Of a DNA stretch of 64,000 nt, positions 4,601-10,996 are shown in pieces; the first letter of the stretch is position 1, and each line of letters opens with the position of its first letter. The translations under genes and the position numbers were made by a program. This DNA comes from Nordella sp. HKS 07 (GTDB taxonomy: Bacteria > Pseudomonadota > Alphaproteobacteria > Rhizobiales > Aestuariivirgaceae): assembly GCF_011046735.1 (NCBI RefSeq), contig NZ_CP049258.1, positions 6,900,001-6,964,000 on the forward strand, in the 5' to 3' direction. The notes under the pieces are model-generated. The model searched no databases. It saw only the letters and a list, made by a program, of their open reading frames with translations, and was not told the origin of the DNA.

Positions 4601-5038
4601 TTATTTTTTGGAGAGATAGGTGACGGCCGCCGCGAAGCCGGCCGCCGCGATCGCGAGCGCCCACACCAGCGGCTGCATATAGAAAGGCGGCGTTGCGAGC
4701 TGCACCTTGCCGGCCGTGGTGGCGGGATCGGGCGGCTTGAGGAAGAAGACGCCATAGAAATGTGCGGCGGTGATCGAAATCAGGAGTACGCAGCAAAAGA
4801 TCATCGCCACCACGAGCGCCACCGTCACGATGCTGCGGATATTCACGCCGGGTTTGGCGAGCGGCAGCAGATTGTTGATGAGGCCGGCCAGCACCACGAG
4901 GCCGGAGCCGATGGCGAAGAGCGTCAGGCTGAAGGGCTGGAAGATCAGGAGCAGCGCCAATATGCCGAGCCCGATGATGAAGCCTTCTAGCCGCAGCGCG
5001 CCCGCCGGGCTCAAGCTCTTTGTCGGACGCTCGCTCAT
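4601..5038 (-). CDS. Small membrane protein of the ABC importer operon
   Basis: The 145-residue protein has about four hydrophobic spans (roughly residues 17-36, 40-60, 68-92 and 115-140) and no recognised catalytic motif. Its ATG overlaps the stop of the upstream ATPase gene by 4 bases (ATGA), so translation is probably coupled. The glycerol importer operon of Rhizobium leguminosarum (glpSTPQUV) also contains a small conserved protein beside two ATPases and two permeases. By analogy this could be an accessory subunit. That is inference from gene content, as I cannot show homology here. Confidence 0.72.
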   Translation of the reverse strand: MSERPTKSLSPAGALRLEGFIIGLGILALLLIFQPFSLTLFAIGSGLVVLAGLINNLLPLAKPGVNIRSIVTVALVVAMIFCCVLLISITAAHFYGVFFLKPPDPATTAGKVQLATPPFYMQPLVWALAIAAAGFAAAVTYLSKK

Positions 5039-6123
5039 GCCCGCACCGCCTTCCCGTCTTCCCCGAATATATGCGTCTGGCTCGGATCGGCGCGCAGATG
5101 CAGCTTCTCGCCGATCTTGAACTTGACGTCACGCGGTACCACCACCCGGATATCGGAATCATCCGGCGTGCGCGCATGCACCAGCGTCTCCGCTCCCATC
5201 GGCTCGATGAGCTCCGCCGTGGCGGCAATCGTGTCTCTGCTGCCCGACCCGACCGGCGTGAACGCGCGAGGTCGTATGCCGAGCGTGACCTGCGAAGGCT
5301 TGAGCCCGCCGACCGCCGGATTGACTTCGAGCTCCACCCGTTCGCCGCCGAACTGGATCGTCGCCTTGGCGCCGCTCACCTTTTCGAGCTTGCCCTTGAC
5401 CAGGTTCATCTGCGGCGTGCCGATGAAGCTCGCCACGAAGACATTGGCCGGCTTGGCGAAGACCTGATGCGGCGTGCCGATCTGCTCGATGATGCCGTCG
5501 CGCATGATGGCGATGCGGTCGGCCATGGTCAGCGCCTCCAGCTGGTCATGCGTCACGATCACCGTCGCCTTGGAGAGGTTGGACAGAACTTCCTTGATCT
5601 GGCCGCGCATCGAATGGCGCAATTCGACATCGAGGCGCGACAAGGGTTCGTCGAACAGGAAGCAATTGGGCTCGCGCACGATCGCGCGCGCCACCGCAAT
5701 GCGCTGCTTCTCGCCTTCCGACACCTGGCCCGGCATGCGGTCGAGCACGTCGCTCAGATGCAGGATTTTCGCCACCCGCGCCACCCTCTTGTCGCGCTCG
5801 GGCTTCGACAGGTTCTCGTAATGCAAGGGCATGGCGATGTTCTCGCCCACCGACAGCGCCGGATAGAGCGCATAGAACTGGAACACCATGGCGATGTCGC
5901 GCTTTTCAGGCGCCAGTTCGTTCATGCGCTTGCCGGCGATGATGATGTCGCCGGACGTCACCCGCTCGAGGCCGGCGATCATGCGCAATGTCGTGGTCTT
6001 GCCGCAGCCCGAGGGGCCGAGCAGGCAAACCACCTCCCCCGCCGCCACCGACAGGTCGGCGTCCTTGACGGCGACGAAATCGCCGAACCTCTTGGTGATC
6101 TTCCGGGCTTCGATGGTGGACAT
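5035..6123 (-). CDS. ABC importer ATPase 2 (MalK/UgpC-like), degenerate signature
   Basis: A 362-residue ATP-binding subunit of the carbohydrate-uptake class, with a C-terminal TOBE-type domain from about residue 240. Walker A GPSGCGKTT is at 36-44, the Q-loop in MVFQFYALYP, and Walker B FLFDEP with the catalytic Glu159. The switch histidine is His192 in VTHDQ. The ABC signature is not LSGGQ but VSEGE at 134-138, so the second conserved Gly is replaced by Glu. It lies 1 base downstream of the second permease gene. The complementary defect in the other ATPase (9905-10996) suggests the two form a heterodimer. The substrate is unknown, probably a sugar, polyol or sugar acid. Confidence 0.92.
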   Translation of the reverse strand: MSTIEARKITKRFGDFVAVKDADLSVAAGEVVCLLGPSGCGKTTTLRMIAGLERVTSGDIIIAGKRMNELAPEKRDIAMVFQFYALYPALSVGENIAMPLHYENLSKPERDKRVARVAKILHLSDVLDRMPGQVSEGEKQRIAVARAIVREPNCFLFDEPLSRLDVELRHSMRGQIKEVLSNLSKATVIVTHDQLEALTMADRIAIMRDGIIEQIGTPHQVFAKPANVFVASFIGTPQMNLVKGKLEKVSGAKATIQFGGERVELEVNPAVGGLKPSQVTLGIRPRAFTPVGSGSRDTIAATAELIEPMGAETLVHARTPDDSDIRVVVPRDVKFKIGEKLHLRADPSQTHIFGEDGKAVRA

Positions 6124-6124
6124 G

Positions 6125-7069
6125 CTATCTCTTCACGGTGCCGAAGGTAACGCCGCGCAGCAAATGGTTCTGCAGGAAGAAGGTCACCAGGAAAACAGGG
6201 ATCAGGAACAGCGTCTCGATGGCCGCGAGAAGCCCCCACAGCACACCGATGCCGCCGCCGGCGACGGCCTGGTTCATGGCGACCGGCACTGTACGCGTAT
6301 CGACACCGGTCAGCAGCAGCGCGAACAGGAACTCGTTCCAGGTGAGGATGAGGCCGAAGACGAAGGTGGCGGCGAGGCCCGCCAGGACCTGCGGCAGGCA
6401 GATCTTGAGGAACACCCTCACGTCGCTCGATCCGTCGATGCGCGCGGCATCTTCGACATCGGGTGACAATTCATCGAAGAAACTCTTCATCATCCAGATC
6501 GTGAACGGAAGATTGAAGGCCGTATAGAGAAAGATGATGCCGGGATAGGAGCCGGCCAGGCCGGCGACGCGGAACATCAGGATGACCGGGATGATCACCA
6601 CGATGGCCGGCAGCATGCGGGTGGTGAGGATGATGAAGAGATAGGTGTCGTTGCCCTTCAGCGGATAGCGCGAGAAGCCATAGGCGGCAAGCGTGCCGAT
6701 CACCAGCGCCAGAAGCACGGAGGTGCTGGCGATGAAGATCGAGTTGAAGAAGAAGCGATCGAAGCCGGTGCTCTCCGCGGCACCACCCGCGACATACGCG
6801 CGCGAGAACACGGAGGTGAAATTCTCCAACGTCGGCGAGAAGACATACTGTTCCGGGATGAGCCCGAAGAAGCTCGTCGGCAGGAGCTTCGGCGGCACCG
6901 CCAGCGCTTCTGTCTGCAGCTTGAACGAGGTCAGGATGATGATCAGAACGGGGAGGAAGTAGATGAGGCTGATGATTGCTGCGAACAGCGTGTGGCCCCA
7001 CCCGGCCTCGCCCACGCCCGACGCCTTGCGGAAGCCCAGTCTTTCCCAGATGGATGTCGTGTCGGCCAT
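6125..7069 (-). CDS. ABC importer permease 2 (MalG-like)
   Basis: A 314-residue inner-membrane permease with six predicted spans. The EAA loop near residue 210 (EDAARIDGSSDVRVFLKICLP) contacts the ATPase. The first 24 residues are cytosolic, then a hydrophobic segment follows (FAAIISLIYFLPVLIIIL). The gene starts 3 bases after the first permease gene and ends 1 base before ATPase 2, so the block is translated as one unit. Length is slightly over that of typical MalG proteins because of a longer periplasmic loop after the first span. Confidence 0.92.
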   Translation of the reverse strand: MADTTSIWERLGFRKASGVGEAGWGHTLFAAIISLIYFLPVLIIILTSFKLQTEALAVPPKLLPTSFFGLIPEQYVFSPTLENFTSVFSRAYVAGGAAESTGFDRFFFNSIFIASTSVLLALVIGTLAAYGFSRYPLKGNDTYLFIILTTRMLPAIVVIIPVILMFRVAGLAGSYPGIIFLYTAFNLPFTIWMMKSFFDELSPDVEDAARIDGSSDVRVFLKICLPQVLAGLAATFVFGLILTWNEFLFALLLTGVDTRTVPVAMNQAVAGGGIGVLWGLLAAIETLFLIPVFLVTFFLQNHLLRGVTFGTVKR

Positions 7070-7072
7070 CGC

Positions 7073-9806: not shown

Positions 9807-9824
9807 GTCCTGTTTCCTCCCTGA

Positions 9825-9860
9825 AGCATGATCCGGAAAATTGCGAAGTGGTTTTCCGGA
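9825..9860. repeat. Palindrome between ATPase 1 and the binding-protein gene
   Basis: A perfect 9-bp stem TCCGGAAAA/TTTTCCGGA (9832-9840 and 9852-9860) with an 11-base loop, preceded by GCATGA. It belongs to the same loose family as the element at 408-485. It lies in the 98-bp gap inside the importer operon, where it could act as an mRNA-stabilising or processing hairpin. Confidence 0.6.
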
Positions 9861-9904
9861 CAGACGTGTCTAGGCACTTCAACTTCCTTCGCGCCGGGAA
9901 AGTG

Positions 9905-10996
9905 TCATCGCAATGCGAGACCGTCCGCGGCGCTGAAGACATGGATCTTATGGGCATCGATTTTGATCGGCAGCCGGTCGCCGAGCTTGATCTCGCTGGC
10001 ACGCGACTCCGACAGGAGAATGCGCAGATTGTCGGCCTTCTCGCCGAGCGAGACGACGGTGACGTCGCCCAGGGGCTCGAGCAATTGCACCGGTGCCGAC
10101 AGATCGGCCGACTGGGCCGAGGTGATCTCGAGATCGGCCGGGCGCACGCCCATGACGACCTTGTCGCCCGCCTTCACCGCGAGCTTACGGACCAGCTCGA
10201 AGCTGCCGAAGCCGGTTTTGAGGGTCTTGCCGTTCTCGCCCACCGTCGCCGGCAGGAGATTGATATGCGGCGCCCCGATCTTGGCCGCGACATAGACATC
10301 GGCCGGCGTTTCATAAAGCGCGTCGGGCGTTCCCTTCTGCACCACCGCGCCGTCGCGCATCACCGCGATCTCCTCTCCCATCGACAGCGCCTCGAGCTCG
10401 TCGGGTGTCGCATAGATGATGGTCATGCCGAACTGCCGGTGCAGGCGCTTGAGCTCGGCGCGCATGTCATGGCGCAGCTTGGCGTCGAGATTGGTCAAAG
10501 GCTCGTCGAGCAGCAGGATATTCGGCCGGCGGATCAGCGAACGGCCGAGCGCCACGCGCTGCTGCTCGCCGCCCGAGAGCGTATTGGGCTTGCGCTCGAG
10601 CCGATGGCCGAGTTTCAGCATCTCGGCGGTTTCTTTGACCCGTTTGTCGATTTCGCCCGAGGCGACCTTGGCCTCGCGTAGCGGATAGGCGAAATTCTGA
10701 TAGACGGTGAGATGTGGATAGAGCGCGAAGGACTGGAACACCATCGACACGCCGCGCGACTTGATCGGCGCATGCGTCACATCCGCGCCATGCAGGGCCA
10801 CCCTGCCCTCGTCCGGTGTCACCAGGCCCGAGATCATCCGCAAGGTGGTCGTCTTGCCGACCGAGCTTGGACCGAACAGGGCGAAGAACTGGCCTTCGCC
10901 GACCGAAAAGCTCAGGTGATTGAGCGCCTGTACGCGCCCATAGGCCTTCGATACGCCCTCAAGGCTGACGGCAGCAGCATTACTATGAGATGCCAC
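9905..10996 (-). CDS. ABC importer ATPase 1 (MalK-like), switch histidine missing
   Basis: From GTG at 10996 the product has 363 residues. Walker A is GPSSVGKTT at 42-50, with SV where GS or GC is usual. The Q-loop is in MVFQSFALYP, the intact signature LSGGEQQ at 140-146, and Walker B LLLDEP with Glu165. The H-loop reads IIYATPDELEA: Pro198 stands where the switch histidine (THD) is expected. A TOBE-like C-terminal domain follows. The frame is open to a GTG at 11068, but GTG 10996 has GAGGGAG just upstream and starts close to the conserved core. It is the first gene of the importer operon and divergent from the epimerase gene at 11272. Confidence 0.9.
   Translation of the reverse strand: MASHSNAAAVSLEGVSKAYGRVQALNHLSFSVGEGQFFALFGPSSVGKTTTLRMISGLVTPDEGRVALHGADVTHAPIKSRGVSMVFQSFALYPHLTVYQNFAYPLREAKVASGEIDKRVKETAEMLKLGHRLERKPNTLSGGEQQRVALGRSLIRRPNILLLDEPLTNLDAKLRHDMRAELKRLHRQFGMTIIYATPDELEALSMGEEIAVMRDGAVVQKGTPDALYETPADVYVAAKIGAPHINLLPATVGENGKTLKTGFGSFELVRKLAVKAGDKVVMGVRPADLEITSAQSADLSAPVQLLEPLGDVTVVSLGEKADNLRILLSESRASEIKLGDRLPIKIDAHKIHVFSAADGLALR

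Follow-up and report, generated by a model that had tools for sequence, protein, structure and literature searches.

ATP-binding cassette (ABC) transporters with one degenerate ATP site are well known among exporters (PMC7756269), and the role of such sites has been studied mainly there. The signature of the second nucleotide-binding domain (NBD2) is changed in all human degenerate sites (PMC7756269), and loss of the catalytic Walker B Glu is described as a hallmark of the degenerate site (PMC7544095). For Pdr5 and ABCB2/B3, restoring consensus residues is reported to bring either no gain or a loss of coupled transport (PMC7756269). Among importers, one degenerate site has been reported for the type II systems RbsA and NupO, in which the nucleotide-binding domains (NBDs) are fused (PMC11466899), and a two-ATPase make-up has been described for the glycerol importer GlpSTPQUV, in a paper in which the word "Walker" does not occur (PMC7912956). 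Here we analyze an operon for a predicted carbohydrate importer in a 64,000-nucleotide stretch of the Nordella sp. HKS 07 genome (NZ_CP049258.1, positions 6,900,001 to 6,964,000; called the window, with coordinates counted from its first letter). It encodes two MalK-type ATPases with complementary changes in their ATP-site motifs. An initial annotation of the window had stated that asymmetric sites are rarely discussed for sugar importers, a statement to be qualified in view of the fused RbsA and NupO. Among the titles and abstract openings listed in searches of the open-access literature, none appeared to describe a degenerate site with unlike ATPases in a CUT1 importer, and in the papers on mycobacterial carbohydrate importers and multitask ATPases the terms searched brought up no passage on unlike ATPase pairs.

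Complementary motif changes in the two ATPases

The two ATPase genes and the motifs that set them apart lie at the following positions.

9905–10996, minus strand: ATPase 1, MalK-type ATP-binding subunit with intact signature and H-loop His replaced by Pro (motif reading, Pfam, relatives)
10559–10579, minus strand: LSGGEQQ signature of ATPase 1, which would complete the consensus site
10403–10405, minus strand: Pro198 codon of ATPase 1, at the H-loop position (computed; Pro in 74/74 orthologues)
5035–6123, minus strand: ATPase 2, MalK-type ATP-binding subunit with intact H-loop His and degenerate signature VSEGE (motif reading, Pfam, relatives)
5710–5724, minus strand: degenerate VSEGE signature of ATPase 2 (position 3 Glu or Asp in 77/77)
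5548–5550, minus strand: His192 codon of ATPase 2, in the H-loop (His in 77/77)

The residues and the coordinates of the two genes are exactly those reported in the initial annotation. ATPase 1, for which a longer GTG start is available at 11068, has the Walker A motif GPSSVGKTT (Lys48), the LSGGEQQ signature at residues 140–146, the Walker B motif LLLDEP (Asp164, Glu165) and the H-loop ATPDELEAL with Pro198. ATPase 2 has the Walker A motif GPSGCGKTT (Lys42), VSEGE at residues 134–138, the Walker B motif FLFDEP (Glu159), the D-loop SRLD (Arg163) and the H-loop VTHDQLEAL with His192. Both proteins retain the Walker A Lys and the Walker B Asp-Glu. They are 37% identical to each other, both match ABC_tran, the MalK OB-fold (OB_MalK) and TOBE_2 above the Pfam cut-offs, and among PDB entries they are closest to AlgS, MalK and other ATPases of sugar transport.

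Relatives of the operon were gathered by using a permease 1 alignment to scan GTDB genomes. The locus sample is unbiased toward ATPase motifs because it was found through the permease, which carries no ATPase-motif information. The best 80 of 91 relatives were analyzed, including genomes that were also entered separately (e.g. L091, L052) and close metagenome-assembled genomes (MAGs), while other MalK-type ATPases of adjoining genes (e.g. L095, L114, and L122–L125, cut by the locus end) were excluded by a similarity threshold. Nine of the 80 loci were without one ATPase and were omitted from the pair count; these have ATPase 1 only (n = 3) or ATPase 2 only (n = 6), and in all of them the contig is short or ends within the locus. 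Both changes were found together in each of the 71 loci with two readable ATPases; whether they always occur in pairs was a check that the initial annotation had suggested. The H-loop position of ATPase 1 is Pro in 74/74 copies, with the signatures LSGGE (65), ASGGE (8) and MSGGE (1), and ATPase 2 has THD in 77/77 copies; its third signature residue is Glu in 76 of these and Asp in one, and its fifth is always Glu (77/77). The D-loop reads TNLD in every ATPase 1 copy (74/74) and SRLD in every ATPase 2 copy (77/77), and the Walker B motif (DEP) is likewise invariant (74/74 and 77/77). Median pairwise identity among the copies is 61% for ATPase 1 and 66% for ATPase 2. Uniformity on this scale, the 71/71 pairs included, shows that the Pro198/VSEGE pattern is not due to chance.

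Conservation also differs between the two composite sites that a heterodimer would form. Entropy was summed for each site over Walker A, Q-loop, Walker B and H-loop of one chain and the signature of its partner. The consensus site (Walker A, Q-loop FQ, Walker B and H-loop of ATPase 2 with the ATPase 1 signature) has a total entropy of 0.60 bits, and Walker A of ATPase 2 is invariant in 77/77 copies. The reciprocal site has 4.77 bits, which come entirely from Walker A and the signature, with Pro and Walker B invariant. ATPase 1 is slightly more variable as a whole (mean entropy per NBD column 0.84 bits, vs. 0.70 bits for ATPase 2), which is insufficient to explain the eight-fold gap. The geometry proposed in the initial annotation, one consensus site and one site degenerate on both sides, agrees with this asymmetry. 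If a heterodimer is assumed, both halves of one composite site are changed in sequence and the other site is consensus.

Other importers with two ATPases

As an own-genome control, all 66 matches to ATPase 2 up to a single cut-off of E 1e-40 were read, and pair status was assigned by hand from coordinates. The H-loop His is lost in 3/8 ATPases of two-ATPase operons and in 0/58 others. The two-ATPase operons are those of the window, the glycerol importer (glp), an apparent sister system (called ii) and a pair called X/Y; the His-less members are ATPase 1 of the window, GlpS and X. Each of two same-strand ATPases 5 kb apart (L227) has permeases of its own, and they were therefore scored as separate operons; LAGG and LSSG were scored as intact signatures, and one CUT2 tandem ATPase (L071) was dropped. 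A wider survey covered 169 ATPases from six genomes (that of the window, G000, with G090, G299, G038, G187 and G054; loci of G003, though read, were not counted). In this set, His is lost in 8/24 ATPases of two-ATPase operons vs. 0/145 others, the five cases added by the other genomes all being GlpS. Broken signatures number 8/24 vs. 0/138, and seven own-genome ATPases added later are intact. Within the survey, only ATPase 2 of the window has the SRLD D-loop. The six-genome table is tilted: several glp ATPases entered it as neighbors (all of those from G090 and G054, and GlpS of G038 and G187), and as many as five matches from G038, G187 and G054, ranked below those listed, may be unread. Among the matches listed only, His is lost in 3/17 vs. 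0/138 (Fisher 0.0011, compared with 7e-8 for the full table); both values count related operons as independent cases and are purely descriptive. This tilt does not affect the own-genome count.

For the glycerol importer, 20 of 35 loci with DUF2160 were read. GlpS combines LSGGQQQ with AT[TS]EP, and thus lacks the His, in 20/20 loci, and GlpT combines THDQ with L[TSG][AP]D.KQ (mostly LTADxKQ) in 20/20. The annotated glp operon on pRL9 of R. johnstonii 3841 follows this pattern too, with ATTEP and LSGGQQQ in one ATPase and THDQ and LTADQKQ in the other; it encodes a DeoR/GlpR regulator, glpD, the two ATPases, two permeases, DUF2160, a binding protein and glpK. The complementary defect is thus common to members of a known importer family. 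The signature of CFTR NBD2 is also changed, to the LSHGH kind, and the CFTR variant G551D resembles the GlpT change; these serve as leads and not as tests.

System ii (L060–L070) differs from the window importer in that it keeps the His in both ATPases, with THD in 22/22 ATPases from 11/11 loci and near-normal signatures (LSGGE 11, LSGGD 6, LAGGD 4, LSSGD 1; n = 22). It resembles the window importer in its permeases, its two ATPases and a binding protein at 28–32% identity, and profile matches of the small hydrophobic protein of the window operon in the same slot are weak (best E 0.0004; the majority miss the inclusion threshold). The permease 1 tree groups the window importer with ii (support 98.8), and permease 2 gives a support of only 11; from these comparisons, ii is apparently the nearest related system. 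The initial annotation had named homologues in the same operon type with a normal His and LSGGQ as a finding that would speak against complementary defects, and ii goes half-way toward it: the His is present throughout, and the signatures are LSGGE, LSGGD, LAGGD or LSSGD. Because ii keeps the His in 11/11 loci, importers with two ATPases need not carry the defect, and a rule that two ATPases always imply complementary defects is ruled out. One ATPase of ii has a Walker A motif of the form GPTGAGK[TS]T and the other has LSGGD, LAGGD or LSSGD, so that the two are perhaps another specialized pair.

X and Y form a third asymmetric pair of MalK-type ATPases (own genome, C1:1664630-1666794, in locus L228, C1:1660000-1671000), beside a kinase that is FGGY-like by eye. 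X has DDP in Walker B, TQD in the H-loop and the signature LSNGQ, whereas Y has FE in the Q-loop and QLE in the D-loop with intact VSGGQ and THD. These features are constant in the 4/4 loci read (L228, L330, L334, L335), and relatives of X occur in 3/240 genomes, that of the window included (E 1e-90). Unlike those of the window, the defects of X and Y are not complementary in the same simple way.

A predicted one-site heterodimer and its alternatives

We consider it likely that the two ATPases form an obligate heterodimer with one hydrolyzing and one ATP-holding site, which is the only pairing here that gives a fully consensus site. The consensus site would be built from Walker A/B, Q-loop and His192 of ATPase 2 and the LSGGEQQ of ATPase 1, and the second site from Walker A/B and Pro198 of ATPase 1 and the VSEGE of ATPase 2. 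The second site probably still binds Mg-ATP, as Lys48, Asp164 and Glu165 are kept, and would hydrolyze it slowly or not at all, acting as a clamp or an allosteric site. In a homodimer of either ATPase, both sites would be half-defective. The MalK variant H192R retains less than 2% of ATPase activity (PMC6222333). By analogy with TM287/288, for which a model keeps ATP at nucleotide-binding site 1 (NBS1) through the cycle, and with ABCC1, which is sensitive to H-loop mutation at NBS2 and hardly so at NBS1 (PMC7756269), the Pro198/SEGE site may hold ATP while the His192/LSGGEQQ site turns over, and one ATP instead of two would probably be hydrolyzed per cycle. Heterodimer assembly, ATP retention, the single active site and the ATP count are all predicted from sequence. 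Several observations weigh against this reading. ATPase 1 retains the Walker B Glu, which leaves room for slow hydrolysis at the second site, and the Glu loss typical of exporters is absent (DEP in 74/74 and 77/77); a CUT1 importer running on a single site would need to have adapted to this; ii, the closest two-ATPase system, keeps both His residues and near-normal signatures in all its loci; and, the operons being related by descent, the 71 pairs do not represent as many independent events.

The kept Walker B Glu leads to a rival account, in which both sites hydrolyze, the Pro198/SEGE site by means of that Glu, helped by local compensation, so that the substitutions modulate the rate without abolishing it. 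Both ATPases keep the Walker A Lys and an invariant Walker B Asp-Glu (74/74, 77/77), and H-loop results for Pdr5 are described as controversial (PMC6222333). Pro, however, is unable to replace His in a proton relay or in hydrogen bonding, the signature facing the Pro198 site is changed as well, and the MalK H192R and HisP H211 mutants retain less than 2% and HlyB H662A less than 0.1% of ATPase activity (PMC6222333), which makes this account improbable in our view. We give still less weight to neutral decay, by which one site became dispensable once two ATPases were present and drifted without function. The greater variability of Walker A and the signature at the degenerate site would suit it, but free drift predicts varied residues, whereas Pro198 (74/74), the acidic signature position 3 (77/77) and Walker B of ATPase 1 are fixed, and ii has two ATPases without such decay. 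No more credible is that the pairing in the operon is incidental, the ATPases forming alternative homodimers or serving other permeases: some type I importers share ATPases (PMC7658222), but either homodimer would carry two compromised sites, and single-ATPase operons among the 80 loci are confined to short or cut contigs.

A further question concerns history and not mechanism. The window and glp importers may descend from one ancestral asymmetric two-ATPase importer, with ii having regained consensus motifs, although we regard this as rather unlikely. In trees built with the motif columns excluded, ATPase 1, GlpS, the B-type ATPase of ii and X cluster together (support 93; 92.9 without X and Y), which favors a single origin, as do approximately unbiased (AU) tests in which trees that united ATPase 2 with GlpT (p-AU 0.711) or the window permeases with those of glp (p-AU 0.23 and 0.593) were not rejected. 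The AU tests rejected none of the groupings tried, GlpS and X are long branches in the ATPase tree, and long-branch warnings apply to the ATPase and permease trees. Against one origin, the replacing residues differ (Pro vs. Thr/Ser; SEGE vs. TADxK), and permease 1 places the window importer with ii, which keeps the His.

The operon and its relation to known systems

The importer genes run on the minus strand from 10996 to 3641 in the order ATPase 1, binding protein, permease 1, permease 2, ATPase 2, a 145-residue hydrophobic protein and a PfkB kinase. Besides the ATPases, they are:

8370–9806, minus strand: substrate-binding protein, SBP_bac_8/SBP_bac_1 (Pfam, relatives)
7073–8200, minus strand: permease 1, BPD_transp_1, UgpA/MalF side (Pfam/NCBIfam, relatives); true start probably near 8134, from comparison with relatives
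6125–7069, minus strand: permease 2, BPD_transp_1, GlcU/UgpE/MalG side (Pfam/NCBIfam)
4601–5038, minus strand: small hydrophobic protein, 145 residues, overlapping the end of ATPase 2 (present in 75/80 related loci)
3641–4585, minus strand: PfkB-family sugar kinase, last gene in the run (Pfam)

Two BPD_transp_1 permeases and an SBP_bac_1/8 binding protein in one operon are CUT1 traits, and we predict a MalK/UgpC-type (CUT1) importer for a sugar or sugar-acid. Both ATPases miss the NCBIfam UgpC cut-off of 432 (scores 334.6 and 393.3), and the single ATPase gene usual in CUT1 systems, its product acting as a homodimer, is replaced by two in 71/71 readable loci. The small protein has no match in Pfam or NCBIfam; its hydrophobic stretches are consistent with membrane segments, and by analogy it is possibly an accessory membrane subunit like GlpU. 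Divergent neighboring genes encode a TIM-barrel isomerase, an MR/MLE dehydratase, a GntR-like regulator and a 2-hydroxyacid dehydrogenase. A transposase-like open reading frame (ORF) (2484–3659, minus strand), recognized by eye, lies between the 3' ends of the kinase and a DJ-1/PfpI-like gene; as these two frames end 38 bases apart in a near relative (L052), it seems to have been inserted recently, leaving both flanking genes intact. Elsewhere in the genome (C1:3558185-3559615, L051) there is an orphan paralogue of the binding protein, 81% identical to it, with no match to the window ATPases or permeases across the 16 kb read around it.

Hosts of related operons, as named in the record titles, include Aestuariivirga, Taklimakanibacter, Mesorhizobium, Bradyrhizobium, Dongia, Inquilinus, Reyranella, Labrenzia and gammaproteobacterial MAGs. 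The system is patchy in distribution, since a draw of 299 genomes from the phylum gave one ATPase 1 relative outside the genome of the window, also with TPD (E 1e-95; six candidates scored per genome). The operon was also found in records labeled Actinobacteria MAG (L099), Mycobacterium sp. KBS0706 (L121) and Blastopirellula MAG (L155), whose permeases (87%, 80% and 64% identity) are similar to alphaproteobacterial copies, and these occurrences are probably labeling or binning errors, or transfer. The genes that follow the importer differ by lineage (PfkB kinase with SDR, or DJ-1-like gene with isomerase; L091–L170), which suggests that it is coupled to more than one catabolic route.

A known counterpart in content is GlpSTPQUV, with two MalK-type ATPases, two permeases, a binding protein and a small membrane protein in each case, and with His and signature lost in complementary fashion across the ATPases through other replacing residues. 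The ATPase genes are three genes apart in the window and adjacent in glp operons. The initial annotation had inferred that the importer belongs to the same class, and the likeness extends to the logic of the ATPases, while a stricter assignment to that class is not supported: DUF2160 (GlpU) is absent, as the small protein lacks a Pfam match; the binding protein is the best match of no ORF in the 20 glp loci (E 1e-10); and the importer is flanked by the PfkB kinase, isomerase and dehydratase genes and not by glpD or glpK. The sole DUF2160 match of the genome lies at C1:1179292, in a separate glp operon, and on these observations together we reject the reading of the window operon as a second glycerol operon.

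It is conceivable, though we hold it only tentatively, that a branch of sugar importers repeatedly became one-site machines (window, glp, X/Y), with two diverged MalK-type ATPases of which one site hydrolyzes and the other only holds ATP. If true, the ATP cost per transported molecule would be halved and the two-site requirement ascribed to MalK would be broken. In importers with separate ATPase subunits, each half-site can be changed independently, and the ATP-to-substrate ratio can be counted with the binding protein. The contrast with MalK and with ii, which has two ATPases with intact His, offers a natural experiment on why one site is off, and the Rhizobium glycerol importer, already under genetic study, is suited to the same question.

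The fused importers RbsA and NupO likewise have one degenerate ATP site, but there the second Walker A Lys is lost, whereas the window importer has separate CUT1 subunits with His and signature changes. Heterodimeric exporters (TM287/288, BmrCD, TAP, CFTR, ABCC1) differ from the window system in that its product is an importer with a binding protein, separate NBD subunits with MalK regulatory domains and the Walker B Glu in both chains. They share with it, by sequence, one consensus and one degenerate composite site, one chain being altered on the catalytic side and the other in its signature.

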